Shown here piece by piece: positions 31,943 through 50,672 of a stretch of DNA of 64,000 nucleotides. The stretch lies in the NCBI GenBank assembly GCA_037481695.1, contig JBBFLE010000005.1:124001-188000 (forward strand), written 5' to 3'. The position numbers and the translations under genes were made by a program. The DNA comes from a bacterium. Lineage in GTDB: Bacteria; Desulfobacterota; Desulfocorpusculales; Desulfocorpusculum. The notes below the pieces were generated by a model, which was not told where the DNA came from, ran no database searches, and saw nothing but the letters and a program-made list of their open reading frames with translations. Positions within the stretch are counted from its first letter, which is position 1, and every line of letters begins with the position of its first letter.

Positions 31943-34867
31943 TTATCCGCTTGCTCCCTCCTGTGCGCCACCGGCTCTTTCGAGAATCTCGAAGCTCAGG
32001 TTCAACTGCCGTGCGGCCTCCTGCATTGCCTTGAGCGTGGGATCCTCCTCGCTCATCTCCTGCCCATCGCGGAAGATGATCTCGAAGCGCACGCCGAGCC
32101 CGAGCTTCTCCAGGTTCATGCGCGCGGCGGGTCCGACAAAGCAACGAAAAAGCTCGGCCCACTGCTCGACCGGTACGTTACCGCGGACCACAAACCGGCG
32201 GACCGTGCTCTGAGCCTTAGGAGTGGTTACAGTTGCGCCTCCTCCGGGCTCGCTGACGAGGGTGCCGGCACCCGGTCCTCCCACGACAACTGGTTTATCC
32301 GTGTCCACGCAGACTCCAGCTACTTCCTCGCCCCCGTGAGCCTTCGGTGTCTCCTGGGTGAACGGCGGGATGATCCATACGCCGTCCTCGCTGGGATCCA
32401 GGGACACCGACTGCTTGCAGTATCGAGTCTGGAGCGTAGAAAGACTTGATCCATGACCGATTCCCACCAATCCGTCAGCACACGCCTGGGCGAGCCCTGC
32501 GGTCACCGCTTCCTTGGTGGCGACCATGGGTTTGTCTGTGAAGCGCAGGAAAGCCTCGACAGCGTCTTTGAGGCGCAGTCCGCCTTCCTTCGGGATCAGA
32601 CCAGTGTCCTCCAGCGTCACCGTTCCCACGCGCCGAAGAATCCACTCCTCGTCTTCGACGAGCGTGGGCCATACATAGCCTAGGTGTTCCTGAAAGGTCC
32701 GGCGCGCATCCGAGAGCACGCACGACTCCACTTCCTGCCCGTGCACCCGAAGGACGACGGTGTAGGCGGGGCCCAGCGCCTCCAGCGCAGCCTTGCGCGC
32801 CGCGTCCAGGCGTTTCTTGAGGTCTTCGCGCTGCTCTTCGTCAAGCTGGTCCCAGTAGTCCGCGCGCACGCCCTCCAAGGCCGCCCGCTCCCGGTGTGCC
32901 TGCCGCAGTTTGCTTAAGCCCCGAGCGGTTCCCACCAGGAACAGAAGCGTGTTACGGTACAGACGGTCCTTCCCACCGCACCGGCTGCTGATCGCCTTCA
33001 CGCGTTGGAGGACAGTATTGCCTGTCTCTTCTTGTGACAGGCTGGAAGCCTGTCCTCCTTCGTCCCAGGCGAGCGACGGCGGCAGGACCAGCAAGGTGAG
33101 CGACTTCTGCTCCGGCAGGTCCTCCGCGGGGTTGACGATTACGCGCCAGGTCGCGCCGGCGACAGCTCCTTTCTGCGACTCGGTCCTGAGATCCTCGAGG
33201 ATCGCTTCCTCGAACGTTTCCTTTGCGCTTTGCTGTCGGTACTGGACGACCAGCTTGTTCAGTGTCGGCTTGGTGCCGAACCAGTAGCGCTTGCCCAGGC
33301 TCCCCGCCGTCGTTGTGTGCAGGTAGAAGCAGCGATTCTCCAGTTCGAGCAAGGCCCCGTCGGTATAGTTCCAGTTCAGGCCCTGCTTCGAGCAGGCGAG
33401 CTTTAGGTCCTTCGAGCTGAATCCGCTTCGACCGCCCTGGCCGCCGAAGGATCCGAGGAGGATTGCGGAAGCCAGACCCTGCCCGATGGACTCTCTTCGG
33501 TAATCGCCTCCGCGCTCCTCGTCGAAGATGCCCCCATTGGACCGTTCACCGGTCACATCGGCCGCTGCAACGGACTGATAGGCAGGTCCCCAGAATCTCG
33601 TCAGAGCCGCTTGCAGAGCATCTACGGACCAGCGGATGTGGCATGGCTGGATCAGGTGCTGGGTCTCGGTGTTGCCCTGCTTTCGACTCCAGAGATCACC
33701 CACGATGCTCGCGAGAAGACGCAGCACACCCCGCGTCCGCTGGAAGTCCGGGTGGCTGCCCCAGCGGGTGTAAAGCGCATCAATGAGAAGCGGATGGAAG
33801 GGATAGGCGCGCTCGATCTGCTCGCGGTAGGTGTTTTTCGCAGCCTCCGAGGGAACCTCCCCCGAGTGGTCCGCGTACATGGCCTGATAGACCTGGGCGA
33901 CCTTCGCCGGATACCAAGAGTCGGGAGATGGACTGCCAGCCTGCACACCATCCATGGACTCGAACAGGCGGGCACGCACAACCTCGTAGATCTCCTCGTC
34001 CGCAACCGGCTTGACGTCAGCCCCGAGGCGCTGGAAGCGCTTCTCCAGCGTCACGAAGGCTTCTTGCCCTTTTTCGCTCTGGGCGACCTCGTACTTACTC
34101 GCAGGCAGCGTCGCCACCACGACAGCCCCTGGAACCTGTTGCACGGCTTCGGTCAACTGCTGGATGAAGGAGACGGTCTGATCCGCGAGGCTCGTGTCAC
34201 CCACGGCAACCGCGGCTGCGCCCACGCAGTAGTCGGCCAGCTCGTCCAGCAGGATCAGGCAGGGGGATGCGGCGCGCAGAATCTCGGCGAAAAGTCCCTG
34301 CGGCACGCGCTGACTCTCGTCATTCGCCCGCACGCGCTCGTAGAGAGCCTTTCCGCCTAACTGGTACGCCAACTCGCCCCAAAGCGTGCGAAGGTGAACG
34401 CCGTCTTCCACCCGGCGGCCCTGGGTCGCGTCGCAGGTCTGGTTCGTGAAGACAGCGACGCCTTTCACCTTCTTCGGCAGTTGCCCGCCGATGGCCTTTC
34501 GCAGTCCCTCCGCGTGAGGTGATTCCTTCAACCGATCCGCGTGTTTCGCCAGGTGCCACAAGGCCACGAGGGTGTGAGTCTTGCCGCCGCCGAAGGCGGT
34601 CTGGAGGCTCATGACCCGGTCTCCCGATGACAGGCTGGATGCCTGTGCTCCACCAAGCGCCGCAGCGACCCGCCTCAACACGGTGCATAGCCCGCTCGTC
34701 AGGTAGGTCTTGCGGAAGAATTCCTCGGGGTCGAGATACACCTCAGGGGCGGTGCCCTGCACAACCGCCCACAGGTCAGCTGCGAAGACGGCCTCGGCGA
34801 GGCGTCCTTCGCGAATGTCCTTGTGAGGGATGGCAATCGCGTACCAGGGTTTTAGCGTTTCGTTCAT
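31943..34867 (-). CDS. DUF499 AAA+ ATPase of defence system
   Basis: A 974-residue COG1483/DUF499 protein. Walker A FGGGKTHTLVALWHLA lies near residue 90; Walker B is CLILLDELADY, with a DEL acid. The N-terminus PWYAIAIPHKDIREGRLAEA is the family start. Such ATPases are typically encoded with DUF1156 Zn-ribbon adenine methylases in defence islands, as here, although the methylase sits 8 kb upstream with a type III RAMP module in between. The C-terminal part contains Gly-rich low-complexity sequence and a helical end. Two short in-frame palindromic insertions (33010-33060 and 34628-34655) encode GGQASSL-like peptides. The ATG at 34867 overlaps the HEPN stop, so translation is coupled. Confidence 0.88.
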   Translation of the reverse strand: MNETLKPWYAIAIPHKDIREGRLAEAVFAADLWAVVQGTAPEVYLDPEEFFRKTYLTSGLCTVLRRVAAALGGAQASSLSSGDRVMSLQTAFGGGKTHTLVALWHLAKHADRLKESPHAEGLRKAIGGQLPKKVKGVAVFTNQTCDATQGRRVEDGVHLRTLWGELAYQLGGKALYERVRANDESQRVPQGLFAEILRAASPCLILLDELADYCVGAAAVAVGDTSLADQTVSFIQQLTEAVQQVPGAVVVATLPASKYEVAQSEKGQEAFVTLEKRFQRLGADVKPVADEEIYEVVRARLFESMDGVQAGSPSPDSWYPAKVAQVYQAMYADHSGEVPSEAAKNTYREQIERAYPFHPLLIDALYTRWGSHPDFQRTRGVLRLLASIVGDLWSRKQGNTETQHLIQPCHIRWSVDALQAALTRFWGPAYQSVAAADVTGERSNGGIFDEERGGDYRRESIGQGLASAILLGSFGGQGGRSGFSSKDLKLACSKQGLNWNYTDGALLELENRCFYLHTTTAGSLGKRYWFGTKPTLNKLVVQYRQQSAKETFEEAILEDLRTESQKGAVAGATWRVIVNPAEDLPEQKSLTLLVLPPSLAWDEGGQASSLSQEETGNTVLQRVKAISSRCGGKDRLYRNTLLFLVGTARGLSKLRQAHRERAALEGVRADYWDQLDEEQREDLKKRLDAARKAALEALGPAYTVVLRVHGQEVESCVLSDARRTFQEHLGYVWPTLVEDEEWILRRVGTVTLEDTGLIPKEGGLRLKDAVEAFLRFTDKPMVATKEAVTAGLAQACADGLVGIGHGSSLSTLQTRYCKQSVSLDPSEDGVWIIPPFTQETPKAHGGEEVAGVCVDTDKPVVVGGPGAGTLVSEPGGGATVTTPKAQSTVRRFVVRGNVPVEQWAELFRCFVGPAARMNLEKLGLGVRFEIIFRDGQEMSEEDPTLKAMQEAARQLNLSFEILERAGGAQEGASG
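33010..33060. repeat. In-frame REP-like insertion in DUF499 gene
   Basis: GACAGGCTGGAAGCCTGTCC, a hairpin, preceded by a second smaller stem GACAGTATTGCCTGTC. It translates as GGQASSLSQEETGN within an otherwise family-like region. Same family as inserts in the methylase and helicase genes. Confidence 0.75.
34628..34655. repeat. In-frame REP-like insertion in DUF499 gene
   Basis: GACAGGCTGGATGCCTGTGC hairpin followed by TCCACC. It encodes GGAQASSLSSG shortly before the Walker A motif. It keeps the reading frame. Confidence 0.7.
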
Positions 34868-35217
34868 GAGGGCTCTCCCATGTCCATCTGGATGTCGGAG
34901 ATTTTCTTTTTCACCATGGGCAATTCCCGTTGAAGGATTTCCCAAATGATCTCCAGATCCAAACCAAAATAATCGTGCACGATGCGATTGCGCAAACCAA
35001 TGATCCGGCGCCATTCGATTTCAGGGTGCTGTGCCGTAAAGGACTCGGGAAGCCGGTTGGCGGCTTCCCCGATAACTTGCAGGTTTCGCGCAACGGAATC
35101 TATTGTCTTCTCATCGGAAACGAAGGTGTCATGGTCCAACCCCGCAATGTACCGCTCTATCTTCTCGATGCACTCGAGGATGTCGGCAATCAACAGATGA
35201 ACCGGCCTATGGGACAT
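34864..35217 (-). CDS. hepT: HEPN-domain (DUF86/HepT) RNase toxin
   Basis: 117 residues of the DUF86 HEPN group. The Rx4H ribonuclease motif is RNRIVHDYF about residues 81-89, preceded by the usual VARNLQVIGEAANRLP helix. HepT proteins are RNA-cleaving toxins, or are silenced by the paired MNT nucleotidyltransferase. The start overlaps the end of the MNT gene and its stop overlaps the DUF499 start, so it is embedded in the operon. Confidence 0.9.
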   Translation of the reverse strand: MSHRPVHLLIADILECIEKIERYIAGLDHDTFVSDEKTIDSVARNLQVIGEAANRLPESFTAQHPEIEWRRIIGLRNRIVHDYFGLDLEIIWEILQRELPMVKKKISDIQMDMGEPS

Positions 35218-35500: not shown

Positions 35501-35780
35501 GATCCTGGCTCCCCCCGTGCCCATAAAATAACCTTAGCTGGCTGTCTTTGAAAGCCGAACCTTTGCCTTCGGCACGCAGGGTGGGGCGTTCGCCGAGCAG
35601 GGCGTTGATCAACTTCCAGTCCTCGAGATCGCGGGGCAAAACCTCGAAGAGCGCCTGCGGGGTCATGCCCTGGACGACGGCCCACAGGTTCGCCGCGAAG
35701 ACGGCTTCGGCGAGACGCCCTTCGCGGATGTCTTCGTGAGGTGTCGCGATGGCATACCAGGGTTTGAGTGTTTCGCTCAT
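35484..35780 (-). pseudogene. Chimera of DUF499 N-terminus and DUF1156 methylase C-terminus
   Basis: 98 residues. Positions 1-40 (TLKPWYAIATPHEDIREGRL...LWAVVQG) equal the start of the DUF499 ATPase at 34867. Positions 43-80 (QALFEVLPRDLEDWKLINAL, GER...LR) equal the end of the DUF1156 methylase at 43184-46741. The joint falls at TPQALF. Its ATG overlaps the stop of the Cas5-like gene, so it may still be translated, but it has no domain of its own. It looks like a deletion scar between tandem copies of these two genes. Confidence 0.85.
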
Positions 35781-36715
35781 GTTTCCGTGCCTCCGTTGGC
35801 CGGCGACTTAGAGGTGTCTTCGTCCTTCATATGCCAGATTCCATCTCTGTCCATCCGGAAGCGGGCTGCACCGTCTCGCGCGACGGAACCTGGAACCCAC
35901 AACGGCTCTCCGTCTGTGCCGGCGGTCTCCTGCTTTCCGTCATCCCATCCTCTCAACGCCTCACGCGAGCCCCGCATGCCACTGGGTGCGTCAGAGGCGT
36001 GAGCGAGCACGCGGGCTGAGCGTACGACCGGTTCCTCTCCCCTCAGCTCCACGAGCTGGCCAAATATGTTCGAAGCAACGTCCAGCTTCCCTACGCGCCT
36101 CAGCTTGCCGAGGCCATATCGGGTATCGCCGCCGACGAAAAGGGTATGGAGGGATTGGAGGTCGTCCGGTAATTTTAGGTCCGCGCTCGAAGATGAATCC
36201 GTCTTCTTCAGGAATACATATCCAACAAGCCCCACGGGTGAAGAAGCGCGGCCATCCATTTCGCGCCAAAATGTGTTCATGCACTCGGTCTCCCGCAGAG
36301 ACCCTTCCTCGGCCGTGGCTGACAAAGGGTCGATCGCCGTACCCGGCCTAGTGTGCAGCAGGCGCATGCGAAAATCCCAATCCGGAAGACACTCCTGCTG
36401 GGAATCGTCTTCCCGCCTCCACACCAATCCCGAGCCGCATTCATATTGCGGGAGCCAGGCATGCCAGAGGTCACCACTTTTTTCCGCCGGATACAGGTAG
36501 GTGAAGCGCACACAGTTCTTGATCTCGTTACCAATTTGCTGATAGTCGGGAAACTGCGCCGCAGCCTTCTGACGGGCGAGTTCCGCCGTGATTGCGCCCC
36601 AGAACACACGGGCGGGCACGTAGAGGCGGCATCGGTTGATACTGCCCGCCGGCGCCATACCAACATGGACAGGCGACTCGAGCTGCCAGATCCAGCGATA
36701 AAGTGACCAGCTCAC
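35777..36715 (-). CDS. Cas5-group RAMP protein (Cmr3/Csx10-like)
   Basis: A 312-residue RAMP. The N-terminus has LESPVHVGMAPAGSINRCRL, and the Gly-rich RAMP loop is GGDTRYGLGKLRRV about residues 195-208. This group caps the 5' handle of crRNA in type III complexes. Divergence prevents a firm choice between Cmr3 and Csx10. The start overlaps the cmr5 stop by 4 bases. The last 60 residues are acidic and low in family similarity. No Cas6 is present to make crRNA. Confidence 0.7.
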   Translation of the reverse strand: MSWSLYRWIWQLESPVHVGMAPAGSINRCRLYVPARVFWGAITAELARQKAAAQFPDYQQIGNEIKNCVRFTYLYPAEKSGDLWHAWLPQYECGSGLVWRREDDSQQECLPDWDFRMRLLHTRPGTAIDPLSATAEEGSLRETECMNTFWREMDGRASSPVGLVGYVFLKKTDSSSSADLKLPDDLQSLHTLFVGGDTRYGLGKLRRVGKLDVASNIFGQLVELRGEEPVVRSARVLAHASDAPSGMRGSREALRGWDDGKQETAGTDGEPLWVPGSVARDGAARFRMDRDGIWHMKDEDTSKSPANGGTET

Positions 36716-37071
36716 TGTTCGTCTCCGGTGCTTGCCCGCGCTTTGGCGTGGTAGCGGGCGTAAACGAAAGCCTGGCGGAGCAAATCCCGCGCGAAAAGCA
36801 ATTGGTCGAGATCGTCTGCGAGACCCTTCACGAACGCCAGAGCGTCGTTCCCCTGGTTTTGGTCCGAAAAAACTTTGGACAGGAATTCCGCGGCCTTGCG
36901 GCCGATCCGTTCGCCCGCCTCACCCTGCCGTGCCTTCAAATAAAGGAAACAAGCATAAGGACCTTGCTCTTCCAGGACGGCCAATGCGGCGGTGAACACC
37001 TTTTCGTCGATGCCGTTGTCTTCTGCGAGATTCCGTCCCAGTTCGGCGCAATCGAGGTCGAGATTTTTCAT
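36712..37071 (-). CDS. cmr5: Cmr5/Cas11 small subunit of type III complex
   Basis: A 119-residue, mostly helical protein (LAVLEEQGPYACFLYLKARQ and AFVKGLADDLDQLLFARDLL). Size, all-alpha nature and place between cmr4 and the Cas5-group gene fit Cas11/Cmr5, which lines the target-RNA groove of type III effector complexes. It is translationally coupled to the next gene. Confidence 0.8.
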   Translation of the reverse strand: MKNLDLDCAELGRNLAEDNGIDEKVFTAALAVLEEQGPYACFLYLKARQGEAGERIGRKAAEFLSKVFSDQNQGNDALAFVKGLADDLDQLLFARDLLRQAFVYARYHAKARASTGDEQ

Positions 37072-37094: not shown

Positions 37095-38117
37095 CTACGT
37101 GCCGCCATGGGAGCCGGTACTGTCCCCCGGGGCAGGCTGGGAGGCCTCAACTGAAGCTGCGGTGCTTGCCTGTGAGCTGCTGGCCGACGATGAGTGGATC
37201 ACCCATAGGCGCCCCATGCCACGTGTGCCCATGCCACCTATACCCAGGTGCTCAAGGTAGTCATGAGCCTTCTTGACGACCTCGAAAACTTCTGCCGGCG
37301 CGCTCATCGGCTTCGAATTGACCTGGGCACACACCTCTTGCCCGCCGATCCTGAAGTGCTGGGGATTTTTGCAGACCACCTCCCACATCAGCACCGTGGC
37401 TCGGGGCAGTGCCTCGTAGCTGAAAAGCGCACCTTCCTCGGCGGCTCCGGTCTCGGGATTGATCGAAACCGAGGTGCGCACCTCCAAATTGCTGTTAACG
37501 ACGTGGGTGAATAAGTCATCGCGGAGCAATCCGAGGTTCTGCCCGACGTATTCTCGCAGGTCCTTATCGCAAAAAAGCTGTTTCACTTTCTCTTGCCAGC
37601 CGTTGTGTTGCTTCACTTCAAGAAGCAACCAACCGAGATTCAGCGGTTGTCCGCCTTCCTTTTGATAGAGGGCGCTTTCTAGTGAATCGTTGATCTGGCA
37701 CCCAATGAGCCGCAGCACGCTCGGAGATGTCACCCAGAGTGGGCCCTTGCGGGTGGCTACAGGGAAAAGCAGGACGTGTGCGTCGCTGAAGGCTGCAAGG
37801 CCCGCGAATCCTCCACCAGTTCCACGCGCGAAGCCAAACACAGTGCAGATGGGGCAATCCCGCCCTCCGCAATGGCCACCATGGCCCGTTTGTTCCGGCT
37901 GCCCTTGCCCCGCGCACATCGGGTATCTGTTCAGCGCCATTGCCGCATAGGTGCGGCACACACCGGCCAGGCTTGAACCCGGGATTTTGGGCACGCGCGT
38001 GACCGGATCGCGCACAATGGAAAGGTCCACGCGGCCAAGACGCTGCCCGCCTGTGCCAACATGGATGGGATCAATGCCTAGACCGATAACCCTGAACTGT
38101 TCGTAGCTCTTGCCCAT
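37095..38117 (-). CDS. cmr4: Cmr4/Cas7 backbone RAMP, RNase subunit
   Basis: A 340-residue Cas7 homologue. The start IDPIHVGTGGQRLGRVDLSI contains the Asp (about residue 31) that in Cmr4/Csm3 cuts target RNA every 6 bases, followed by the family segment RVPKIPGSSLAGVCR. A Cys-rich insert (CGGRDCPICTVFG) and a terminal Gly-rich loop (GIGGMGTRGMGR) are also typical. With Asp retained, periodic target-RNA cleavage is expected even though the Cas10-like subunit looks inactive. Confidence 0.88.
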   Translation of the reverse strand: MGKSYEQFRVIGLGIDPIHVGTGGQRLGRVDLSIVRDPVTRVPKIPGSSLAGVCRTYAAMALNRYPMCAGQGQPEQTGHGGHCGGRDCPICTVFGFARGTGGGFAGLAAFSDAHVLLFPVATRKGPLWVTSPSVLRLIGCQINDSLESALYQKEGGQPLNLGWLLLEVKQHNGWQEKVKQLFCDKDLREYVGQNLGLLRDDLFTHVVNSNLEVRTSVSINPETGAAEEGALFSYEALPRATVLMWEVVCKNPQHFRIGGQEVCAQVNSKPMSAPAEVFEVVKKAHDYLEHLGIGGMGTRGMGRLWVIHSSSASSSQASTAASVEASQPAPGDSTGSHGGT

Positions 38118-38121
38118 GGGG

Positions 38122-41100
38122 TTACCCTCCTATATGTACTTTTAGCCAGGTTAGGTGCCACTCCAGCACCCAGGCAAGAATTCCGGTGCCCGCCGCATCC
38201 ACAAGCGCCTCTAGTGCCGCTCCTTGTAACTCCAGCCGGTCGCTAAGAATTGCCCTTGCAAGGCGTAACCATTCCTCTTTGCTTCCGGCTGACCATGAGC
38301 CGGTGTTATCACACCAGTTTCGCGCCTTTTCTTCGATCTGGGACCAGGCACCGCGGAGCGCCGTCAGGCTCGGGCTGTTGCGCACCAGCAGGTCCCAGGT
38401 GGCCTGCATACGTTCAAAGTCTGCAAGCGGCCAAACCCGTGGCGTTTCAAACCGCCGCGAGGTCGTGTCCAGAAACACGCCAGCAATGCGGCTTGCCTCA
38501 ACCCTGATCCCATCGCCGGGGCGCAAATCCGCCATGTGGCGATAGACCTGACCGTTGGGGTGCTGAAAATCCCGCGGGAAGCGCAGCGCGCGATCTTCCA
38601 GGCGAACGTATGAATAGAACACGTCCTCCCGCCCATCAGGCAGGCTTACTGGCACCAGAATCGCCTCGGTGGCGCCGTCTTTCCGCTTTAGCGACAGCGC
38701 GGTGATCCCTTCCCGCGTGCGGCACTCCAGGACCCGCCAGGTCTCGCCACCGTCCCGGTCCAGCGCGTCCTCCAGATTCCGCGCGGCCTCGATCACCGCC
38801 TGAAACGGGGTCAGCCGCGGGAAAGCCACGACTCCGATGCGTAACGGCATGCGATCCCAAACTCGTGCGAACTCCTCACGCCACTTCGCGATTGCCGCCT
38901 CGATACAAGGTGTAACACGATCCAATGGAACGAGAACCCGGAATCGGCGGGGAGTGCGCTCCAGCAGGGTCACCGGTGCGTAGATGCCGAGGCGCTCAGG
39001 TTCTCGTGTGGATTGAATTTTGAGCTTTCTTACCTGGCCGTCGTCCCCTTTGAGCTCAAGCTCCTGCTCTTGGAGCACCGTTGCCGTGTCTGTAGCCTCC
39101 AGACACCGGGACAGGTTGCCAATGCTCAAAAACTCGTTGTGGTCAGTCCGATAGAGGACCTCAAAGGGACCTTCGTTCCACCGGCCCGCGTAGGTCTCGC
39201 GGTCTTCCCATTCTTGTGCTGTCTGCGTATCCGGAGCAAGACGCAACCGGCGTCTCCGCCAGGGGTTCGGATGGCTGGCGGCGATTTCACGAAACTGTTT
39301 GAACAGCTCATCGAAGAAGGCTTCCGTGGTTCGCCAGAAGCGGTACACACGGCCGGGGGACGGAAGTTTGCGGAAAAGCTGATGAGCCAGCCAGTTGGCT
39401 CGCCCATCGTCCGTTAGATTGGCAAATTGAGGGGCATTCGCCCGGTCCTCGACAATCTTGGCAAAGAAGGTGTCCCAGCTTCTCTCGTGCCTGTACCCTT
39501 CCTGAAGGTTCGCAAGAACGAGGTCGTCTTTCTCGAACGATGCAAGCCTGGTTTTTACGTAGTCCATAACCGACGCGAAAGGGCGTTCAGGATCAAGGGG
39601 ATTGTCGATACGTCGTCTCTGATTGGGGTCCCTCTTCCAATATTCCTCGAGTACTGGATTGAACCGCTGCCAAGACGCAATGTTCTGTGCTCTCAGTGAG
39701 TCGACGTGCTCGCCTTCCAGCCAAGGATCTATGTCGAAGCTCACCGTGAGCAAAGCCACGCGATCGTTCTCGTCAGCGACCTCAGAAATCCAGATCGTGT
39801 CGTCCTCGCCTGAGAGCCATGCGTCCAGGCGTCCTCTGCGACGTTCGCGGCAGACGCCACACAAATAACTTTTGCGCGCGTTGTCGGTCTGCGCCGAGCG
39901 AGGCGGCTCGTTGAGGCGCGTTAGGCAAACGGGACAGACGTGACGGGTCCCTGACGCCTCGGACTCATTGTAGGTCTTGATTTCCCATGGCCGGTGGATT
40001 GGGACCGCCAGTGCTTTCCGCACTTCGCGCTGTTCGTGGACCATCGGCACAACGGAACGGGTGGATTGGGAAAGACGGCAAAGCGGCGGCGTTTCGAACT
40101 TGAGTTCTTGTGCGAACTGGTCCAGCTCTTCCGCGATGCTTTTACGCAGCTCCTCAGCCGCGTTATCGTCGAGGCTGCCTTTGCCGTCCTCGCGTTGGCC
40201 AGGGAACGTAAAGACCACCGTTTCGTCATCGCGATAGACGAGCGATCCGATGGCCAGGTCTACTTCGATGAATTTCCGCACCCGCTCAAAGAATCCTTCG
40301 ATGTCACGCTGAGCGCCCACCCAGTCGCCGATTTTCACTGCCCGCGCTTCGTAATGGCGCGTGCCAAACCCAACGGTCAGCACCCTCCAGCGAGTCTGTT
40401 GCTTTGAATTGTTGCCCCACTCAAAGGTATTTCCAACCAAAACAGCCCCGGCGACGGCCGATTTGAAGAGCGCCGCCGCCACGTAAGATTGGTCCCAGAG
40501 TGTGACATCGTTGTTTGGCACCCGAGTCTCGGCCACGGTTGAAAGGAAAGCTTGCCTCAGCCAGCCGCTTGGGCCGATGGCGTCTTCGCGCCAACGCCAC
40601 CAGTGATTTGGGTCTCCGCATGGAATGGAGCCAAGTTCCTTGAGTTTTTCCAAAAGAGCTGCAACCCGCTCGACGAGTTCATCCCAACCGTCTGATGCAA
40701 GAAGCCGCGGCGGATTGACCAGCAGATTGCGAACCGGGTGACCGAACGGCGAGGAGAGCCACATGTGCGTGGCATCTTGCTTCAGATACTCGGACGTCGA
40801 GGTCGGAACGTTTTTCTCGATCCCAGAAGCAATTCCATGCCCGGCCTGAAGAAGACCCAACATTCCATCATCTGAAGCGCGGTGTTTGATCAAAAAGTCC
40901 GTCAAAGAAGACGGCCACTTATCCTGCGGAATATTCCACGAACCGCTTTTGAGCCAGGCAGCGTACTCGCTCCACGGGAAGGGGGGCTTTTCTTGCTCAT
41001 GCCAGCGCAGGTCGTCGTATCCGACGCCGACCCCGCCTTGTTTTCGGAGGAAATCGGCGTGCGCCTTGCCGGTCATATGCAGCCAGCCGATGGCCTCGCA

Positions 41101-41160
41101 GCCGAGCAGCAAAGGCCGATGCTGGCGTAGAGTGGCGAGCATGGAAGTCCCGTTGTTCAT
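38122..41160 (-). CDS. Divergent Cas10 (Csx11-like) large subunit, active sites degenerate
   Basis: A 1012-residue protein that fills the Cas10/Cmr2 position. The N-terminus LLLGCEAIGWLHMTGKAHA corresponds to the HD-nuclease motif (usual form LHDxGK), but HM replaces HD at residues 28-29. A Cys4 zinc motif (CPVCL...CGVC) lies about residue 405-440. The palm-like part reads RVALLTVSFDIDPW; no GGDD/GGDEF cyclase motif is visible anywhere. The late part IGVVAFPRLTPFQAVIEAAR resembles the end of the Cas10 palm. Loss of the cyclase motif fits the Csx11/type III-C group; loss of HD as well would leave no catalytic site. The start overlaps the Cmr6-like stop. Confidence 0.78.
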   Translation of the reverse strand: MNNGTSMLATLRQHRPLLLGCEAIGWLHMTGKAHADFLRKQGGVGVGYDDLRWHEQEKPPFPWSEYAAWLKSGSWNIPQDKWPSSLTDFLIKHRASDDGMLGLLQAGHGIASGIEKNVPTSTSEYLKQDATHMWLSSPFGHPVRNLLVNPPRLLASDGWDELVERVAALLEKLKELGSIPCGDPNHWWRWREDAIGPSGWLRQAFLSTVAETRVPNNDVTLWDQSYVAAALFKSAVAGAVLVGNTFEWGNNSKQQTRWRVLTVGFGTRHYEARAVKIGDWVGAQRDIEGFFERVRKFIEVDLAIGSLVYRDDETVVFTFPGQREDGKGSLDDNAAEELRKSIAEELDQFAQELKFETPPLCRLSQSTRSVVPMVHEQREVRKALAVPIHRPWEIKTYNESEASGTRHVCPVCLTRLNEPPRSAQTDNARKSYLCGVCRERRRGRLDAWLSGEDDTIWISEVADENDRVALLTVSFDIDPWLEGEHVDSLRAQNIASWQRFNPVLEEYWKRDPNQRRRIDNPLDPERPFASVMDYVKTRLASFEKDDLVLANLQEGYRHERSWDTFFAKIVEDRANAPQFANLTDDGRANWLAHQLFRKLPSPGRVYRFWRTTEAFFDELFKQFREIAASHPNPWRRRRLRLAPDTQTAQEWEDRETYAGRWNEGPFEVLYRTDHNEFLSIGNLSRCLEATDTATVLQEQELELKGDDGQVRKLKIQSTREPERLGIYAPVTLLERTPRRFRVLVPLDRVTPCIEAAIAKWREEFARVWDRMPLRIGVVAFPRLTPFQAVIEAARNLEDALDRDGGETWRVLECRTREGITALSLKRKDGATEAILVPVSLPDGREDVFYSYVRLEDRALRFPRDFQHPNGQVYRHMADLRPGDGIRVEASRIAGVFLDTTSRRFETPRVWPLADFERMQATWDLLVRNSPSLTALRGAWSQIEEKARNWCDNTGSWSAGSKEEWLRLARAILSDRLELQGAALEALVDAAGTGILAWVLEWHLTWLKVHIGG

Positions 41161-42131
41161 CGCGCCCCCTCCGCCTGCAGCCGCTCTTCGAGCTGCTTCT
41201 GAAATTCTTCTCGAGAAGTTGCTTCAATCGGCTCTTGTTCCTTCAGCCATCCCCGCCACGTCGTGATCTCCGCCGTGCCCCACCCCACGGTGCGCTTGGC
41301 CGATATGCCGTATTTCGTAAGCAGTTGCTCGATCGCCTCAAGCAGCCGCGGGAGAAAGTCAGCCCGCTGGGCTGTTTGTTTCGCGCCTGGCAATGGGGCG
41401 TACAGCAACCTGAGACTACCTTTCCCTCCGTCTTCCAATTCCTGCGGATTGTCCGCCTTCGGCCTCCTGCCAGGGACTACCTCATAAAGAATCGGTTGCG
41501 TGCCCGCGGGCCGGCGCCGATCGTGTGGATTGATTACCTCGAACCCGATCTTGTCGAACCAGGTAGGATAGAAGACCGACGCACCCTGGTGGAAATCCTG
41601 GCCTTTCCTTTTCTCGTTCCCAAACAGGTGCAAAATCCACCCGGGATCGTTCCAATCCTCGAACCGCTTCCCGTTGCTAAGATGCTCCCGAAGTCCCGCC
41701 TGCATCCGGCACGCCCACCGCAGCACGCCCTTCCAGCTCGCCGCGGACATGTACGGAACACCGAACACGGGATCCTTGCGCACAGGATTGTCGAGCACGT
41801 GAAAAAGCCGGTCGTCCTTCGAGTACCAGGGCGTCTGAAGCGTGAAGGAGACCTCGATGGCGAGCCAGCCGAGCTGAGGGATGCGGACCCGCATATCGAT
41901 CAGCTTCGCAACCTCGTCGGGTAGTAGGCGTGCTGTGACCGCCTGCTTGATGTAGCAGTTCCGGGCGTCGTTCTTCTTCTGGGTGCCCGCCTTCTTGTCC
42001 GCCTCCAGCTCGCCCCGCGCAAACCACGTCGTGCACCCATCGACAAAGCCGCTGGCGAGGCCCGCGGGAAGCTCAGCAGAGTCCGGACATTTTGATTGAC
42101 CGGCGAGGTCAGCGTAGAGGTCGAAACTCAT
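41157..42131 (-). CDS. cmr6: Cmr6-like RAMP protein
   Basis: A 324-residue Cas7-superfamily RAMP. Signature segments: VSFTLQTPWYSKDDRLF, FGVPYMSAASWKGVLRWACR, HLFGNEKRKG, and a Gly-rich loop SAKRTVGWGTAEI. Cmr6 binds the 3' end of crRNA and target. Its start overlaps cmr1 and its stop overlaps the Cas10-like gene. The C-terminal tail (about 30 residues) is a charged helix. Confidence 0.83.
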   Translation of the reverse strand: MSFDLYADLAGQSKCPDSAELPAGLASGFVDGCTTWFARGELEADKKAGTQKKNDARNCYIKQAVTARLLPDEVAKLIDMRVRIPQLGWLAIEVSFTLQTPWYSKDDRLFHVLDNPVRKDPVFGVPYMSAASWKGVLRWACRMQAGLREHLSNGKRFEDWNDPGWILHLFGNEKRKGQDFHQGASVFYPTWFDKIGFEVINPHDRRRPAGTQPILYEVVPGRRPKADNPQELEDGGKGSLRLLYAPLPGAKQTAQRADFLPRLLEAIEQLLTKYGISAKRTVGWGTAEITTWRGWLKEQEPIEATSREEFQKQLEERLQAEGAR

Positions 42132-43165
42132 CTGTTACCTCCTTCGCCGAGGAGCCTGCGCAGAATATCGCCGCCCGTCACGAACTCGTTGTCGCCCAAA
42201 TTGTCCCATGCGTTCTTCTTCAAACGCTGCCGCATCTCGTCGAGCTTGTCCGTGGACTGCACGAAGCCGAAGGTCCGTCTCGCGGATTCGGGGTTCTTGA
42301 AGCTGAATACTTTCTTGCTCTCCGCCCGTCCGCCCGCGAGCCATTTCTCGAGATTGCCAGTGGGGTTTTGTTCGCTCCGGCGCCGCGGAAGTCTGTTTGT
42401 CTTCCCGCACCTCTGCGGCGGATCGTGAACCTGCCCGCAATCGAGACAGCTTTTGCTCTCCTCGCGCCCGAGCACACGGTTGAAGGAGCTGTGATCGGCA
42501 TCTTCCCGCGAAAGGTGCCTTCCTGATACGCACCAGAAGTTCTGAGCCGATGCCCAACCGAACGAGCCGTGATTCAAGCTGCGCCACTGCTGCTGCGATA
42601 CGAACGTCCGTAACTCGTGGTCTGTGCACGCATACAGTCTTTGATGAGGAACGAGCTTCACCAGACCGAAGTCCTGATGGCGCTGCACTGATTGACGGTG
42701 GCTTTCCTCGGTAGGCTTATAGACCGTCTTCCCTCCGATGGCTCCGTACTCTGTGATCAGCCGGAGCGTCAGGTCGAGGAGCGCCCATTCCTTCTCCGAG
42801 ATCGCACGCAAGGGGGTGAACCGAAGCTGGAAGCACTGGTTTGCCTTGATCTGGTTCTGTTGCGGCTTGCCGTTCTCGTCCAGTACTTCGAAGCGAAACT
42901 TCCTCGCCCAGCCAGTGCAGCCAAAGAGCTCGCACACGACACAGTGATGCCCGGGCTTGGTGGGGTCGGCCACCCGGTGGTCAGGGCACCGAATGCCATC
43001 TCTGGTCGGATCGCACGCTGACCCGCCCAAGCCACGCACGAGCACTTCGAACCACCAGCGGATCGAGCCGAGCAGGCCGATCGTAATGAGGCGGTGCGGC
43101 TTTCCGTCGGCATCGCCTGTCCAGATGTCGGTGAGCGCCTTCACCGTATAGGTTCGCTCTTCCAT
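42128..43165 (-). CDS. cmr1: Cmr1 RAMP protein
   Basis: A 345-residue Cmr1. The N-terminus IWTGDADGKPHRLITIGLLG, then SIRWWFEVLVRGLGG, is the classic Cmr1 motif. HCVVCELFGCTGWARKFRFE follows, with a Cys pair also found in the family. Cmr1 caps the 3' end of the type III-B/C complex. Both an ATG (43165) and a GTG (43168) follow GGAGG. The gene begins 18 bases after the methylase, making it the first of the six RAMP-module genes. Confidence 0.87.
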   Translation of the reverse strand: MEERTYTVKALTDIWTGDADGKPHRLITIGLLGSIRWWFEVLVRGLGGSACDPTRDGIRCPDHRVADPTKPGHHCVVCELFGCTGWARKFRFEVLDENGKPQQNQIKANQCFQLRFTPLRAISEKEWALLDLTLRLITEYGAIGGKTVYKPTEESHRQSVQRHQDFGLVKLVPHQRLYACTDHELRTFVSQQQWRSLNHGSFGWASAQNFWCVSGRHLSREDADHSSFNRVLGREESKSCLDCGQVHDPPQRCGKTNRLPRRRSEQNPTGNLEKWLAGGRAESKKVFSFKNPESARRTFGFVQSTDKLDEMRQRLKKNAWDNLGDNEFVTGGDILRRLLGEGGNR

Positions 43166-43183
43166 CACGATTCACCTCCCGCC

Positions 43184-46100
43184 TCAAAAAAGCCCGGGCT
43201 GCGCATCCCTGTACGCTGCACGCTTGCCCTCCGTGCGGAGCGTCTCCCGCTCGCCGAGCAGGGCGTTGATCAACTTCCAGTCCTCGAGATCGCGGGGCAA
43301 AACCTCGAAGAGTGCCTGCGCCAGCTTCCAGAAGGGGCCGTCTTCAAGCAAATCCCGGTCCGCAAGATAGGCGACCAGGTCCTTGCGCTTTTCTTGCTTC
43401 CACAGAAGCAGGCTTCGGTGCAGTGCGTCAATTAGCGGAGGGTTGGGATCGGTTCCCAGCCCTCGGCGGCTCGCGCGGTCACCCAGGAGCGCAAGGCGGC
43501 ACTTGGAACCGTCCACTACGAAGATACCGTGCCCACGGGCGACCTCCATGGCATCAGTTGGGGGACATGCATGTTGCCTGTCTTCTTCTTCCTGCAGCCT
43601 GGAAGGCTGCCCCCCAACTATCTGCACAACGAGGCGCGCGTCGTCCCAGGCCTGCTCGGAGGTCCCGTAGAGGTTCGCCCAGACGTAGTAGAGCGTCGAA
43701 AGGCTGTCCCCGCGGAACTCGCCGGCAATGGCGTCGCGGGCCGCCTGCCTGGCCAGCTCCAGAAGCTCGGGGATACCCACCGGCGTTCCGTCCGCCTTCT
43801 CCACCCGTTCGTACTTGCCGAAGACACCCACGGCCGGGCCGTAGCATGCGACGATGAGGTCCGCGCCACGGAATCCGTAGGCCCAGAAGCGCTTGACGGC
43901 ATCGTGCACGACCTTCTCGATCTCCTTACGGACCTGCTTGAAGGAAGCGGCACTCCCAACGACACGGGGGCGGCAGATGACGGTGACCGAGGAGGCCAGC
44001 GCTGACATGCTTCCCTTCAATGCCGTGGTCAATTCCGTATCAATGGGCCATGTGGCATCCACAGTCAGGCCGGCCTCGAAGATCGCGTCAACGAGGGCGG
44101 TCCACGCTTTCGTTGACTGATGCGCGAACATAATGGAAATGACACCGCCGCGTTTCACTGTCCGATGCGCTTCCGAAAGAGCTTGCGCCAGCTTAGTTCT
44201 GAAATGATTGTCAGCCCTTTCGCCATTGCCCGCGTGCCGGTGCTTAAGCGCCGTTGCCTCATCGGTCTTTGGCGTCAACGGGGTTAGCAACGCTTCGTGG
44301 ACCAGATTTCCGAGTCCTCGCTTCAGCCAGACGTAGAAGTAGTCCGAAAGGTCACCGTACGCGATGGCGTCAAAGTATGGCGGGTCGGTGACGACCATAT
44401 CAGTTGAGCCGTTCCCCATCGCAAGGTGCGACGCATCGCCGAGAAACACCTTGCCTGGTATGCCGGAGGACTCCCTCGAAATAACGCGAAGCATCCAGTC
44501 AACGCCGCCTTCTGCCCCACCAGTAGATTCTGAGAACGGGTTTGCTTCCGGATAGTCCCACGTCATCGGGATTGCTTGGCGCCCGAAGGGGTGTTGAAGC
44601 GTTTCGCGGGTTGTGTCCCACAGCCCCACGTTTGAACTCCGCTGGGCGATCCGGCTTAACCACAATCCCAGATACACCCCCACCGCCTTCCTGTACTCCT
44701 CGTCTTCGATCTCATGTTTCATCGCCTCCAGTGCCTCGTGGAGGCAGGTCACGAAGGTCTGCATGGCCACGAGCTGCCGGGGGTTGAAGAGCGAGCCCCA
44801 GGTCTTCATGCCGTACATGTATGTCGTGAATTGGCCGCGGTGGGACACGTGCCCGTCCGAGCCCGAAACCTCGGGCAGGATCAGCTCTCCCGGCCGCTCG
44901 ACATCGATCGTGCAAGCTGTGCGGAACGCGGCGAGATCGCTCTCCTCGGCAGGTCGGTAGTCCTTGCCGTCCTTTCCTTCGACGATCACGGCGACCATGC
45001 GCTCGGCCATCTGACCCGCCTTGCCCGCACGGCGTAAGTCGTCCTCGGACGTCGGCTGTTCACAGTATGGACAGACGGCCGGCCCACGCTCCTGTTTGGT
45101 GCCTTCGGTCCGCTGGATCGCCTTCCCTTTCGTGATTCCGAAGCGAAGGGTTTTCCGCTGCTTGTCCACGTCCATCGTCAGGGCGACCTTCTTGTCCTTC
45201 TTGTTGCAGACGAGGAGGCTGCGCAGCAGGGGAATCTCGCCGCGGCAGGAAGGATTTGAGCACGGCGCGGTTCGCGCCCACAGGTAGCCAACCACTGGCT
45301 TACCGTCTTTGCCCGGGGGGTAGAGGTGGCCGATCCTTTGACGCGCCCGCTCCAAGATCCAGGTCGCCCATTTCTCGAAGTCGTGGACTAAGACATTGGG
45401 GACCCAAGTTGGGGGGCAGCCTTCCAGGCTGCACTGCTTCATCACATCATCTTCATAGAGCCAAGGGTAGTCTTCGTGCTTTTTGCAAATCCCTGCCTTG
45501 ACGGGGTTATCCCGAATGTATTCCCATTTTTGTAGATAATCCTCCCGGTCGCGAATAATCCGGTCGAAGCTTTCCGGCTGCCAGAGATGTTGGGAGGGAG
45601 GGCAGGCTTCCAGCCTGCAAGAACCAGGCATCTTGCCTGCACGAAGTGCCTTGCTTACCTCATTGGCCGTAAAACTCTTTATGGAATGCAGCACCTTGGA
45701 CAGCTCATGACTGCCGATGGGTTCAATCAACGCATGGACATGATCCGGCATGACCACGGCCTGATGAAGCCGAACCTTCTTACCGTTCCAATGTAGCAGC
45801 GCGTTTAGCACAACCGACCGTTGGAATTCAGGGACCTCAAAACGGTCCCATGTCGAAAACGTGACGTAATAGATGCGACCTTCCAATTCCCAGTGCGGGA
45901 AGTTGCGGCGGGTGGCTTTCAGGCCAGGATGATTGAACAGAGAGAGGGTATCTGTAGGCTCTAGGCTATGCAGGCTGGAAGCACTTGTTTCATGCAGGCT
46001 GGAAGCCTGCCCCCCAACTATTTTTCTCCAGCCAGGCTTGCCGTATTTCTGCGGGAACTCGCAGGTGGCGCGCAGGATGAGGTAGGCCACCGGGTTGTAG

Positions 46101-46741
46101 TCGTTGGCGATGGCCTGGCAGCCCAGCCGCCCCGCTTCCAGCGGGATTGCGCCGCCGCCCGCGAAGGGGTCCAACACGACGGGCGTTTGGCCGCCATACG
46201 CGGCCTGCACCAACTCACGGGCGATGCGCAACACCTCGCGCCCCTGGGGGTTCTCGGGGTCAGAAGTCTCCCACTTCACGAGAGACCGGTCGTCGAGGAG
46301 ATACTTTGGCTCCGGCTCTTTCTCGGCTTTGCCCGCCTCGAAGGCCAGGTACTCCGGCGACCACTTGGCGATGAACATCAGGAGCCTGTTCCGCAGCGTA
46401 TCGGGCATGCCCTCGTAAGGACGGTATGGGTCATTGTCGCGGTGAATGTCACGACCGCGACGGTAGTACGTGAGTTCCGCCGGCACATGTGTCTTCAGAT
46501 GGCGCTCAACCTCTGTCCGGAACTCCTCGGGACAGCGCGGATCGTCGGGATCGGGCACAAGCGACGCGAACACCACCGCCCGCGACGCCGCCAAAGGCCG
46601 CCTGGCCCACCAGAGGTGCAGTGTGGAAATGTGCCCGTGCCGTAGCGATTTATCCCGCACGCTTTCTGCCGAGATCTCACGGATGGGCAGCGCCACTTCG
46701 ATGAGGCGTGGGCAGGAACCATTTACGTTCCGGTTATCCAT
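43184..46741 (-). CDS. DUF1156 Zn-ribbon adenine DNA methyltransferase with inserted transposase
   Basis: A 1185-residue COG1743 methylase. It begins with the DUF1156 segment IEVALPIREISAESVRDKSL, HGHISTLHLWWARRP. SAM-binding motif I is VLDPFAGGGAIPLEA, the catalytic motif is TDPPYFDAIAYGD, and Zn-ribbon Cys pairs (CSNPSC, CPYC) sit between. An insertion (45408-46018) adds about 200 residues carrying a complete REP-associated tyrosine transposase domain without breaking the frame. A second palindromic insertion is at 43556-43619. The ATG at 46741 overlaps the OLD-gene stop. It probably modifies host DNA so that the associated helicase/ATPase system spares it. Whether it folds with the insertion is uncertain. 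Confidence 0.88.
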   Translation of the reverse strand: MDNRNVNGSCPRLIEVALPIREISAESVRDKSLRHGHISTLHLWWARRPLAASRAVVFASLVPDPDDPRCPEEFRTEVERHLKTHVPAELTYYRRGRDIHRDNDPYRPYEGMPDTLRNRLLMFIAKWSPEYLAFEAGKAEKEPEPKYLLDDRSLVKWETSDPENPQGREVLRIARELVQAAYGGQTPVVLDPFAGGGAIPLEAGRLGCQAIANDYNPVAYLILRATCEFPQKYGKPGWRKIVGGQASSLHETSASSLHSLEPTDTLSLFNHPGLKATRRNFPHWELEGRIYYVTFSTWDRFEVPEFQRSVVLNALLHWNGKKVRLHQAVVMPDHVHALIEPIGSHELSKVLHSIKSFTANEVSKALRAGKMPGSCRLEACPPSQHLWQPESFDRIIRDREDYLQKWEYIRDNPVKAGICKKHEDYPWLYEDDVMKQCSLEGCPPTWVPNVLVHDFEKWATWILERARQRIGHLYPPGKDGKPVVGYLWARTAPCSNPSCRGEIPLLRSLLVCNKKDKKVALTMDVDKQRKTLRFGITKGKAIQRTEGTKQERGPAVCPYCEQPTSEDDLRRAGKAGQMAERMVAVIVEGKDGKDYRPAEESDLAAFRTACTIDVERPGELILPEVSGSDGHVSHRGQFTTYMYGMKTWGSLFNPRQLVAMQTFVTCLHEALEAMKHEIEDEEYRKAVGVYLGLWLSRIAQRSSNVGLWDTTRETLQHPFGRQAIPMTWDYPEANPFSESTGGAEGGVDWMLRVISRESSGIPGKVFLGDASHLAMGNGSTDMVVTDPPYFDAIAYGDLSDYFYVWLKRGLGNLVHEALLTPLTPKTDEATALKHRHAGNGERADNHFRTKLAQALSEAHRTVKRGGVISIMFAHQSTKAWTALVDAIFEAGLTVDATWPIDTELTTALKGSMSALASSVTVICRPRVVGSAASFKQVRKEIEKVVHDAVKRFWAYGFRGADLIVACYGPAVGVFGKYERVEKADGTPVGIPELLELARQAARDAIAGEFRGDSLSTLYYVWANLYGTSEQAWDDARLVVQIVGGQPSRLQEEEDRQHACPPTDAMEVARGHGIFVVDGSKCRLALLGDRASRRGLGTDPNPPLIDALHRSLLLWKQEKRKDLVAYLADRDLLEDGPFWKLAQALFEVLPRDLEDWKLINALLGERETLRTEGKRAAYRDAQPGLF
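43556..43619. repeat. In-frame REP-like insertion in methylase gene
   Basis: Begins AGTTGGGGGACATGC and ends GCTGCCCCCCAACT, i.e. inverted ends like those of the transposase element at 45408-46018. It encodes GGQPSRLQEEEDRQHACPPT within a region otherwise like the family. About 64 bases long and frame-preserving. Confidence 0.75.
45408..46018 (-). mobile_element. REP-associated tyrosine transposase (RAYT) element inside the methylase
   Basis: About 610 bases. The ends are imperfect inverted repeats: AGTTGGGGGGCAGCCTTCC on one side and AGTTGGGGGGCAGGCTTCC read inward from the other. Inside, in frame with the methylase, is a Y1/HUH transposase domain: YYVTFSTWDRFEV, the HUH motif MPDHVHALIEP, and the C-terminal tyrosine region WEYIRDNPVKAG. 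Two more hairpins (about 45602 and 45967) lie within. It has no start or stop of its own, so the transposase would be made only as part of the methylase polypeptide or from an internal ATG. Confidence 0.85.
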
Positions 46742-48656
46742 TCTTAGCAAACTCCATGATCTTTTCGCAGAGCTTCTTCAGAGAATCCGATTCTTTCCCA
46801 GCTTCCCACGCTATCTGCAAGCTCGATGCAACGTGAAGCGTGTTCTTACGCAGATTTCCCGCGTGTCCGTATTTCGTATCAGCCTCTGCTCGATAATTAT
46901 CCCAGTCCTCTTTGCCGATCTCCTGCTCAACCACCTGCCCGATGTCAGAGGGCCACATGACCACGGTTTCTCCCCAAAACGTATCAGCCGGGAACGGTTC
47001 GGGATCGGGTACACCGCATAACTTCAGGATCGCGCTGTTGTCTCTGCGGTGCTTTTCCTTGCTCCCGTTCTTATCGGGCTTATCGCCATCTGCATCGATT
47101 AGAACAAAAGCTGGTATCTCAAGACTCTTGGCAACGGCCAGAGGCTGCAGCATTTCGCTTTTTCCATCGGTTGGGATGAGATGGCACCCGAGCCTCCTAT
47201 ACTCATCCCACGACCCCAGGAGGTGCAGGTACGTTGTCAGATAGGCGGTATCCTCAAGTCCCTCAACGAAGACGAGCCTAGAAGCAAAGAACATCTCACT
47301 GAGTGCGGGCTGAAGCGCCTGATGAATCTTGGCCAATTGACCGCCGGCCTTTACTGGCTCTTCTCCTCTAGCTTGTGCGATCCGCTTTGCTACCTCATCG
47401 TGTGTCGTCCTTTTGATCGCTGACGTGCCGTTAATCTTGCGGACCATTCGTACACTCTCGAAGCCTTCACCGGACACGAAATATGGACTGTGAGTGGTGA
47501 TCAAGATCTGGGAGTTTTGTTCGCTCAACCTCATAAACAGGTTGTAAAGATGCCTCGCTTGCGGGGGATGCTGGTAAAGCTCGGGCTCCTCGCAGGCAAG
47601 AATGAGCCGCGGACCTGCCTCAAGGTTGCTACCAGCCAGCTCCTGGAGGAGCGCCAGAAGAAAGGCGCGTTGAAGTCCATGACCGAACCGAGTAGGCTCT
47701 CCTTCAAATCCTGCCTCGCACAGAATAGCTTGAGCGATCGGCTCCTCCACGCGTACCGCCCTCTCGGGATCCTGGTGCCATCTCAACTGCAGAGATGCGT
47801 CGGGGTGTGCCCACTGTACGAGGCGATTTCTCAGTGATTCGGATATTTCTGCCAGCAGTTCTTGCTTTTCGGCGAGGAACTCACTGTATTTCTCCTGCGT
47901 TTCTTTGCGAATAGCATCGATCCGATCCTTGAAGTTGACCTTGGAACGTACTGTTCGGGCCAGAAGCTTTCCAAGCGCCGTCGCCCTTGTCTCGACCTGT
48001 TCACTTGATGCATCTTTGACGGCTGGCACGTAAACCCACTGAATGTACTTCTCCAGAAGGTCCTTTCCTCTGGTTAATCCATAAAACTCGTCGCTGCTCG
48101 GAAGCTCTTCACACATCCCCTGGTGTTTTTCCTCGTAAGTGCGAAGAGCTTCGACCATAGAATCCTTCGTACCCGGAGCCGGGAGATCAGGATATTTCTG
48201 TCGCGCTTTGTTGTATATTTCCTTGAGCTCTGCGACTTTCTTGCCTGCCTTTTCAGCTTCGAAGAAAGGCGCAAACTCTTTGATCACCAGCCTGCGTCCA
48301 TATTGCTTGACTTCGGCCCTGCCGGTGGCGGGGTCAAATCGCGCTTCGGTCGAAACGACTAGCTGATCTTGGCGCACGTAGTGTTTGAGTTCCTCTTTTG
48401 CCTCGGGGGAAAGGTCAGAGAAGGTAACGGTTATCTCGACAGGCTCTGCTGTGTTCTTGCCGTGAAAATCTTCGTCTCCAAGTGAGCGCGTGTTGAGGCC
48501 AGGTATGCCCGTCTCTCCAAAGAAGACATTAAGAGCATGAAGTACGTTGGATTTTCCGGAACCGTTTGGTCCAACGAAGCATGTGTAGTCGTCAAGCTCA
48601 ACGGTTTCCTCTTTTATCGACCGAAAGTTTCGAATTCGAAATGACTTTATCTTCAT
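46734..48656 (-). CDS. OLD-family ATPase/TOPRIM nuclease
   Basis: 640 residues. An SMC/ABC-type ATPase with Walker A GPNGSGKSN about residues 29-37, coiled middle part, signature-like RFGHGLQRAFLLAL, Walker B LILACEEPELYQHP and H-loop ITTHSPYF. It is followed by a TOPRIM nuclease domain (VFVEGLEDTAYL; LIDADGDKPDK). This is the OLD/GajA layout, used in Gabija and other anti-phage systems. No UvrD-type GajB partner is next to it; the neighbours are a methylase and DarTG. The ATG at 48656 follows AGGAGG. Its stop overlaps the methylase start. Confidence 0.9.
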   Translation of the reverse strand: MKIKSFRIRNFRSIKEETVELDDYTCFVGPNGSGKSNVLHALNVFFGETGIPGLNTRSLGDEDFHGKNTAEPVEITVTFSDLSPEAKEELKHYVRQDQLVVSTEARFDPATGRAEVKQYGRRLVIKEFAPFFEAEKAGKKVAELKEIYNKARQKYPDLPAPGTKDSMVEALRTYEEKHQGMCEELPSSDEFYGLTRGKDLLEKYIQWVYVPAVKDASSEQVETRATALGKLLARTVRSKVNFKDRIDAIRKETQEKYSEFLAEKQELLAEISESLRNRLVQWAHPDASLQLRWHQDPERAVRVEEPIAQAILCEAGFEGEPTRFGHGLQRAFLLALLQELAGSNLEAGPRLILACEEPELYQHPPQARHLYNLFMRLSEQNSQILITTHSPYFVSGEGFESVRMVRKINGTSAIKRTTHDEVAKRIAQARGEEPVKAGGQLAKIHQALQPALSEMFFASRLVFVEGLEDTAYLTTYLHLLGSWDEYRRLGCHLIPTDGKSEMLQPLAVAKSLEIPAFVLIDADGDKPDKNGSKEKHRRDNSAILKLCGVPDPEPFPADTFWGETVVMWPSDIGQVVEQEIGKEDWDNYRAEADTKYGHAGNLRKNTLHVASSLQIAWEAGKESDSLKKLCEKIMEFAKNG

Positions 48657-50069: not shown

Positions 50070-50081
50070 GATTACGCTCCT

Positions 50082-50672
50082 TCAAATCGTGAAAATATCA
50101 TGTTCGACCGATACCGGCAGCTTTCCGGCAATGCTTCTTAGCTTCCGCGCTGCCTCTTCCGAACAAACGTAAGCGCCCGTAATAAAACCAGGATCAACAA
50201 ATTTCGGTACCAGCACCTCAGCACACCTGACCCGCTTTCTGAACCAATATTGTATCTGGTCCGGTGCCCGCCAGTCGCGAGCAAAGACAAGTTGCTTATC
50301 CAAGGCGCTTAACCCACCTGGAGCAGGAAGGAAACGCGTGTAATCGCTTGCAGCATTGCCATCTGCAATGATAACGCCTTTCAGACGGAGCACGGCCTTG
50401 TCGATGCGGAGAACCGCCAACTCTTCTCGCCTAGACTGGATCGCGCACATCATTGGGTTGCGTGCGTGAAAATAGAGGTTCGCATAATCGTGCAAACGTC
50501 CGGCGTTCGGTATGACCTTATTCGCCCGACGCGCCTGCACCAGTGGGTTGGATATCGTTTGCACTTTCAGCTGTTTGGCCTTGTTGTGGCTCAGGATGCC
50601 GTGATTCATGATCGATGGTATTATCTCCATGAGCGTGATGAAATGGAGTTCGTCAAGATCGTCCAGGGTCAT
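50082..50672 (-). CDS. darT: DarT ADP-ribosyltransferase toxin (DUF4433)
   Basis: 196 residues. DarT attaches ADP-ribose to thymidine in single-stranded DNA. Visible features: LHFITLMEIIPSIMNHGILS at the N-terminus, LHDYANLYFHARNPMMCAIQ, DGNAASDYTRFL, and a probable catalytic Glu in CAEVLVP. The start overlaps the helicase stop (ATGA). Its presence in the middle of the methylase/helicase operon, not as a separate cassette, suggests co-regulation as an abortive back-up. Confidence 0.92.
   Translation of the reverse strand: MTLDDLDELHFITLMEIIPSIMNHGILSHNKAKQLKVQTISNPLVQARRANKVIPNAGRLHDYANLYFHARNPMMCAIQSRREELAVLRIDKAVLRLKGVIIADGNAASDYTRFLPAPGGLSALDKQLVFARDWRAPDQIQYWFRKRVRCAEVLVPKFVDPGFITGAYVCSEEAARKLRSIAGKLPVSVEHDIFTI

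Follow-up and report, generated by a model that had tools for sequence, protein, structure and literature searches.

A clade of subtype III-C CRISPR complexes whose Cas10 subunit, Csx11, lacks both the HD and the GGDD motif and whose Cmr4 keeps its RNase site

Accounts of type III CRISPR immunity usually rest on two activities of Cas10, as a DNase and as a source of second messengers, and the locus described here raises the question of what such a complex could still do when its large subunit carries the motif of neither. The gene concerned lies at positions 38122..41160 (minus strand) of a 64,000-nucleotide stretch of contig JBBFLE010000005.1 (GCA_037481695.1, Desulfocorpusculum), referred to here as the window. 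A first-pass annotation made from the DNA alone had described its product as a Cas10-like subunit with both catalytic centres apparently lost, and had concluded that its output must pass through neighbouring enzymes.

The Csx11 subunit and its III-C operon

The Cas10-like identity was borne out and can be named more precisely. The 1012-residue protein scores 291.1 bits against TIGR02682 (Csx11; cut-off 248.95 bits) and 409 bits against the PADLOC Cas10c profile, and by these matches the large subunit is Csx11, the Cas10 of the rare subtype III-C. It is encoded within a single minus-strand operon that holds the full III-C set by TIGR and PADLOC profiles, in the order cmr1-cmr6-csx11-cmr4-cmr5-cmr3: a cmr1-like RAMP gene (42128..43168; TIGR01894, 51 bits, above cut-off), a cmr6-like RAMP gene (41157..42131; PADLOC Cmr6, E 3e-61), csx11 itself, the Cas7 backbone gene cmr4 (37095..38117; TIGR02580, 119 bits, above cut-off), the small-subunit gene cmr5 of III-C type (36712..37071; PADLOC Cmr5 CAS-III-C, E 1.9e-30) and the Cas5-group gene cmr3 (35777..36715; PADLOC Cmr3, E 5e-76). 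The identical order is present in relatives. Four zinc-finger cysteines of Csx11 (Cys409, 412, 434 and 437; 39850..39936, minus strand) are invariant in the family alignment. Motif assignments within the protein are based on sequence profiles: a PDB search with Csx11 alone as query gave zero matches, the family profile gave weak matches only, to Cas3-HD, Csm1 and Cmr2, and a structure prediction from two sequences (the window protein and L002) reached a mean pLDDT of 33. Viral contigs searched with the single Csx11 protein yielded no relatives.

At the position of the HD nuclease motif (residues 27-32; 41065..41082, minus strand) both the ORF translation and the alignments read LHMTGK, with Met in place of the Asp at residue 29, just as the first-pass annotation had read it, and no shifted HD motif was found elsewhere in the protein. 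The second His motif of the HD superfamily is not conserved in the alignment. The last Asp of the domain, which several HD-intact members carry within aD..dS, is replaced in this group of sequences by a His (His108 in the window protein; 40837..40839, minus strand), in an alignment register that is moderately certain across a variable domain; some members with an intact LHD (L033, L034, L044, L051 and L052) also carry His at the equivalent position, so that this residue alone is not decisive.

The cyclase site is likewise missing. The strings GGDD and GGDEF are absent from the 1012 residues, and when the Csx11 profile was aligned by HHalign with ten Cmr2 proteins, including the one encoded by this genome, VYAGGDDVLALLP fell opposite LERTPRRFRVLVP, from which it follows that GGDD corresponds to T736-P737-R738-R739 in Palm2 (38944..38955, minus strand). 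A sub-profile run at this site gave a probability of 92% (E 7e-7). GGDD was found in no sampled Csx11 row covering the position, nor in a shifted place in the window protein. In published accounts (PMC12669027, PMC3150331, PMC11229360) the III-C cyclase domain is either lacking or inactivated; a missing GGDD was thus already known for the subtype, and the loss of the HD motif is the part specific to the clade described below.

The sole acidic palm hairpin seen in the window protein is Y309-R310-D311-D312 (40225..40236, minus strand; 18-row family alignment), which lies in Palm1. We judged it unlikely to substitute catalytically for GGDD, since the Asp of the first Palm1 strand, carried by most other Csx11 proteins, is Gly or Asn in the rows of the clade, and since the Palm1 hairpin shows no significant likeness to the one that bears GGDD in Cmr2 (probability 2%). 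Csx11 proteins outside the clade mostly have both the first-strand Asp and an acidic Palm1 hairpin of YRDENG type (window residues 259-320). In those proteins the Palm2 hairpin is Palm1-like and the acidic hairpin is mostly in Palm1, the reverse of Cmr2.

A clade with a fixed HM motif

Csx11 relatives were drawn from 395 genomes belonging to the phylum of the window, a class-level search, one Terriglobia genome and three plasmids, a sampling mostly of one phylum in which L002 and the plasmid records represent the outside. Twelve clade sequences, one of them from the window, extend over the site, and all of them carry LHM[T/A/L]GK, even at as little as 38% identity to the window protein; HM occurs in none of the 14 other sampled Csx11 sequences covering the site, which read LHD (13) or LHN (one, L042). 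The relatives in the clade are 38-63% identical to the window Csx11 and include an acidobacterial genome and a Thermus thermophilus plasmid, whose copy reads LHMAGK. On the tree the six full-length clade members are separated from the remaining sequences by a branch supported at 100/100, making the clade monophyletic, and the HM motif has one origin. Because 12 sequences of independent genomic or plasmid origin share HM, a recent mutation or a sequencing error is ruled out, the former being one of the two findings that, according to the first-pass annotation, would overturn its reading; the other, an intact motif in a shifted position, was answered by the searches described above.

Within the clade the motif is strongly conserved at H28, M29, G31 and K32, with H28 and K32 invariant in the whole 18-row family alignment and M29 invariant in the clade, which suggests that the HD-like domain of these proteins still has some role. 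Selection on the protein can be read from clade pairs with measurable divergence. The best-measured pair (L037 and L038), in which synonymous change is unsaturated (dS 0.46), gives a dN/dS of 0.19, and the other measurable pairs, at high dS, give 0.13 to 0.19. Judged from the tree and these ratios, the HD motif was lost long ago and purifying selection acts on the protein. On the evidence of the alignments both Cas10 centres are thus lost throughout the clade, in relatives from at least two phyla. In the Thermus plasmid locus (L050, 9560-18272) csx11 and cmr1 are broken by insertion sequences, and this copy is therefore probably inactive.

The premise that no known type III Cas10 has lost both centres, with which the first-pass annotation had framed the case, does not hold. 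Hoikkala et al. reported III-C Cas10s without a cyclase site and with a recognizable HD in only half of them, so that doubly inactive Cas10s are already implied in their survey. In the open-access literature we found no description of the clade, of its fixed HM motif or of the retained Cmr4 site to which we now turn.

The Cmr4 RNase site, guide supply and known systems

The window cmr4 encodes a catalytic Asp, D31, in the motif GRVDL (codon 38025-38027, minus strand), which is invariant in the aligned Csx11 loci: the Asp of GRVD[L/N] is kept in every locus covering the region, with GSVDN in one row. It aligns with the Asp of the III-B Cmr4 of the same genome and with that of the VD in Cmr4 chains of known structure, and is the conserved Cas7-backbone residue that marks complexes cleaving target RNA. 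Target RNA cutting by the Pyrococcus furiosus complex depends on the Cmr4 Asp D26, and the construct numbering is consistent with D26 being the residue aligned to D31. We infer that target RNA is the only substrate that the window complex should cut.

No CRISPR array was found in the window or in stretches 1-120000 and 188001-266043 of the contig (all but ~4 kb of 266 kb), and no cas1 or cas6 was found near the locus, their matches lying on other contigs only. Arrays lie on two other contigs, and elsewhere in the genome there are two Cas1 and three Cas6 matches, a III-B system whose Cmr2 carries LLHD and GGDD, and a III-A system whose Csm1 carries LLHD and GGDD. Because array, cas1 and cas6 are all missing near the locus, the III-C module probably borrows crRNAs in trans from the arrays elsewhere in the genome.

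The explanation that we favour, and hold to be reasonably probable, is that the complex is a crRNA-guided RNA-cleaving effector with guides supplied in trans, in which the Cas10 has no DNase or cyclic oligoadenylate (cOA) output of its own. Csx11, devoid of the canonical HD single-stranded DNase site and of the GGDD cyclase site, would serve as a structural cap; together with Cmr1, Cmr3, Cmr4, Cmr5, Cmr6 and a crRNA from a distant array it would bind complementary transcripts, these would be cut by the Cmr4 Asp, and the biological effect would be the silencing of transcripts. A P. furiosus complex with both the HD and the Palm site of Cmr2 mutated still cleaved target RNA in vitro and gave no anti-plasmid immunity (PMC7192623). 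Because of this result, RNA cleavage alone may be too weak for defence, which would favour a partner or a non-defence role. The predicted biochemistry of the clade, RNA cutting without DNase or cOA, equals that of the double mutant, which was engineered, whereas the clade represents a natural, selected state. With both centres lost and the Cmr4 RNase site kept, it lends itself readily to testing how much the cleavage of target RNA can by itself achieve in vivo, and would be a source of RNA-targeting complexes for which no collateral output is expected.

Compared with subtype III-C at large, the window locus is alike in its Csx11 score above the TIGR02682 cut-off, its cmr1, cmr3, cmr4, cmr5 and cmr6 genes and its inactive Palm2, and differs in that the HD motif retained by nearly all other sampled members is lost too. 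With III-F, III-G and III-H it shares the missing cyclase, which is absent or inactivated in these subtypes (PMC11229360 for III-F; PMC12669027 for the others), and with III-G also the absence of arrays, III-G loci having none and being predicted to use crRNAs in trans (PMC12669027). III-F generally retains the HD (PMC11229360), and III-G and III-H have an apparently active HD and no conserved Cas7 Asp and are predicted to be DNA cutters (PMC12669027); relative to III-G and III-H the clade is the opposite, with the HD lost and the Cas7 (Cmr4) Asp kept. The output predicted for the clade, in which Cas7 units cleave RNA and Cas10 contributes no catalysis, is shared with III-E and III-I (for III-I as a prediction, PMC12669027), but those systems use a fused Cas7-11 derived from III-D, with Cas10 lacking or reduced, whereas the clade has a full-length Csx11 and separate Cmr subunits.

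Genomic neighbours and alternative explanations

The window module sits between hmaB, a DUF1156 DNA-adenine methylase gene (43184..46750; PADLOC HmaB, E 1.1e-136, and Pfam DUF1156), and hmaC, a DUF499 ATPase gene (31943..35014; PADLOC HmaC, E 7e-131, and Pfam DUF499), with the SNF2-type helicase gene hmaA (50669..54526; PADLOC HmaA, E 2.6e-194), darTG and an OLD-family ATPase gene upstream. All three hma genes are on the minus strand and outside the complex; they belong to Hma, a separate, restriction-like system among the DUF499-centred, BREX-related ones (PMC12839542), and DUF1156 and DUF499 are not III-C parts. Linkage to Hma was seen in the window and in one relative only (L037), in which hmaA, a DarG-like gene, hmaB and hmaC adjoin the module in a different order. 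Elsewhere in the clade the module lies within or adjoins type I genes, of I-C (L036; L040/L041), I-G (L038) and I-A (L032); the module of L102 lies within an I-A-like operon with an array, the Thermus plasmid copy adjoins cas3'', cas4, cas6, a TM1802-family gene and arrays, and L002 and L099 have no type I or Hma partner in the available flank. Between the window and L037, best local alignments give identities of 31% for HmaB and 30% for HmaC, and 53% for Csx11. Faster evolution of Hma could also produce identities of about 30%, and we saw no sign of joint inheritance of the Hma genes and Csx11. Given the variable context and the stronger divergence, the link of DUF1156 to the III-C module is occasional and not diagnostic, and DUF1156/DUF499 as a defining partner was ruled out.

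There is thus no support for the claim that neighbouring enzymes must deliver the output, the Cmr4 Asp being invariant and the neighbours variable and, for Hma, more divergent. The association nevertheless deserves a proper test: among loci with enough flank, 8/10 in the clade lie within or beside type I or Hma genes, against 3/11 other Csx11 loci (Fisher p 0.03, in hand-set classes and uncorrected for relatedness). It is on this excess that a partner model would rest, in which the complex senses a transcript and the dead Cas10 recruits or licenses the adjacent type I Cascade/Cas3 or Hma for DNA cleavage. We consider this quite unlikely: defence genes form islands anyway, two loci have no such partner in the available flank, the partners (I-A, I-C, I-G and Hma) are mutually unrelated, and the identities given above make the pairs look independently assembled. 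A degenerating or decoy complex, without interference of its own and retained in a dominant-negative or crRNA-buffering role alongside the III-A and III-B systems, whose motifs are intact, would account for the loss of both centres in a genome whose other Cas10s have HD and GGDD, and for the broken Thermus member. It is improbable, in our estimate more so than the partner model, because the protein is under purifying selection, unrelated hosts carry complete operons and Cmr4 retains its Asp. Least probable of all is that Csx11 is still an enzyme, with HMxGK and other His residues binding a different metal or with the acidic Palm1 hairpin replacing the GGDD of Palm2. The invariance of H28, K32, Y309 and D311 across the family alignment, and of M29 in the clade, would fit such a role, but the lost first-strand Asp and the insignificant match to the Cmr2 hairpin speak against it, as does the fact that no cOA effectors have been reported for III-C (PMC11229360).

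A broader proposal, to which we give a low but somewhat higher probability than to any of these alternatives, is that throughout this cross-phylum clade Cas10 has become a non-catalytic RNA-recognition module, the complex being either a pure programmable transcript silencer or a device that hands its targets to an adjacent type I Cascade/Cas3 or Hma. We did not find this defence logic described for type III in the literature.

Several further features of the neighbourhood were observed. DarG and DarT form a complete DarTG toxin-antitoxin pair (48942-50672, minus strand) between hmaA and the OLD-family ATPase gene, and the DarG-like gene of L037 adjoins hmaB as well. Between cmr3 and hmaC, a HepT-like HEPN gene and a nucleotidyltransferase (MNT) gene (34864-35524, minus strand) constitute a probable HEPN/MNT toxin-antitoxin pair. 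HmaB contains, in frame, a RAYT (REP-associated tyrosine transposase) domain at residues 286-430, within a stretch of about residues 238-453; REP-like repeats lie near this RAYT-bearing hmaB, and the HmaB of L037 is without the RAYT stretch. HmaC has short in-frame stretches resembling translated repeat sequence, and a 41-nt palindrome-like repeat, TTTACCCAAAA...TTTTGGGTAAA, is dispersed in nine copies over positions 19469-60329 of the window.
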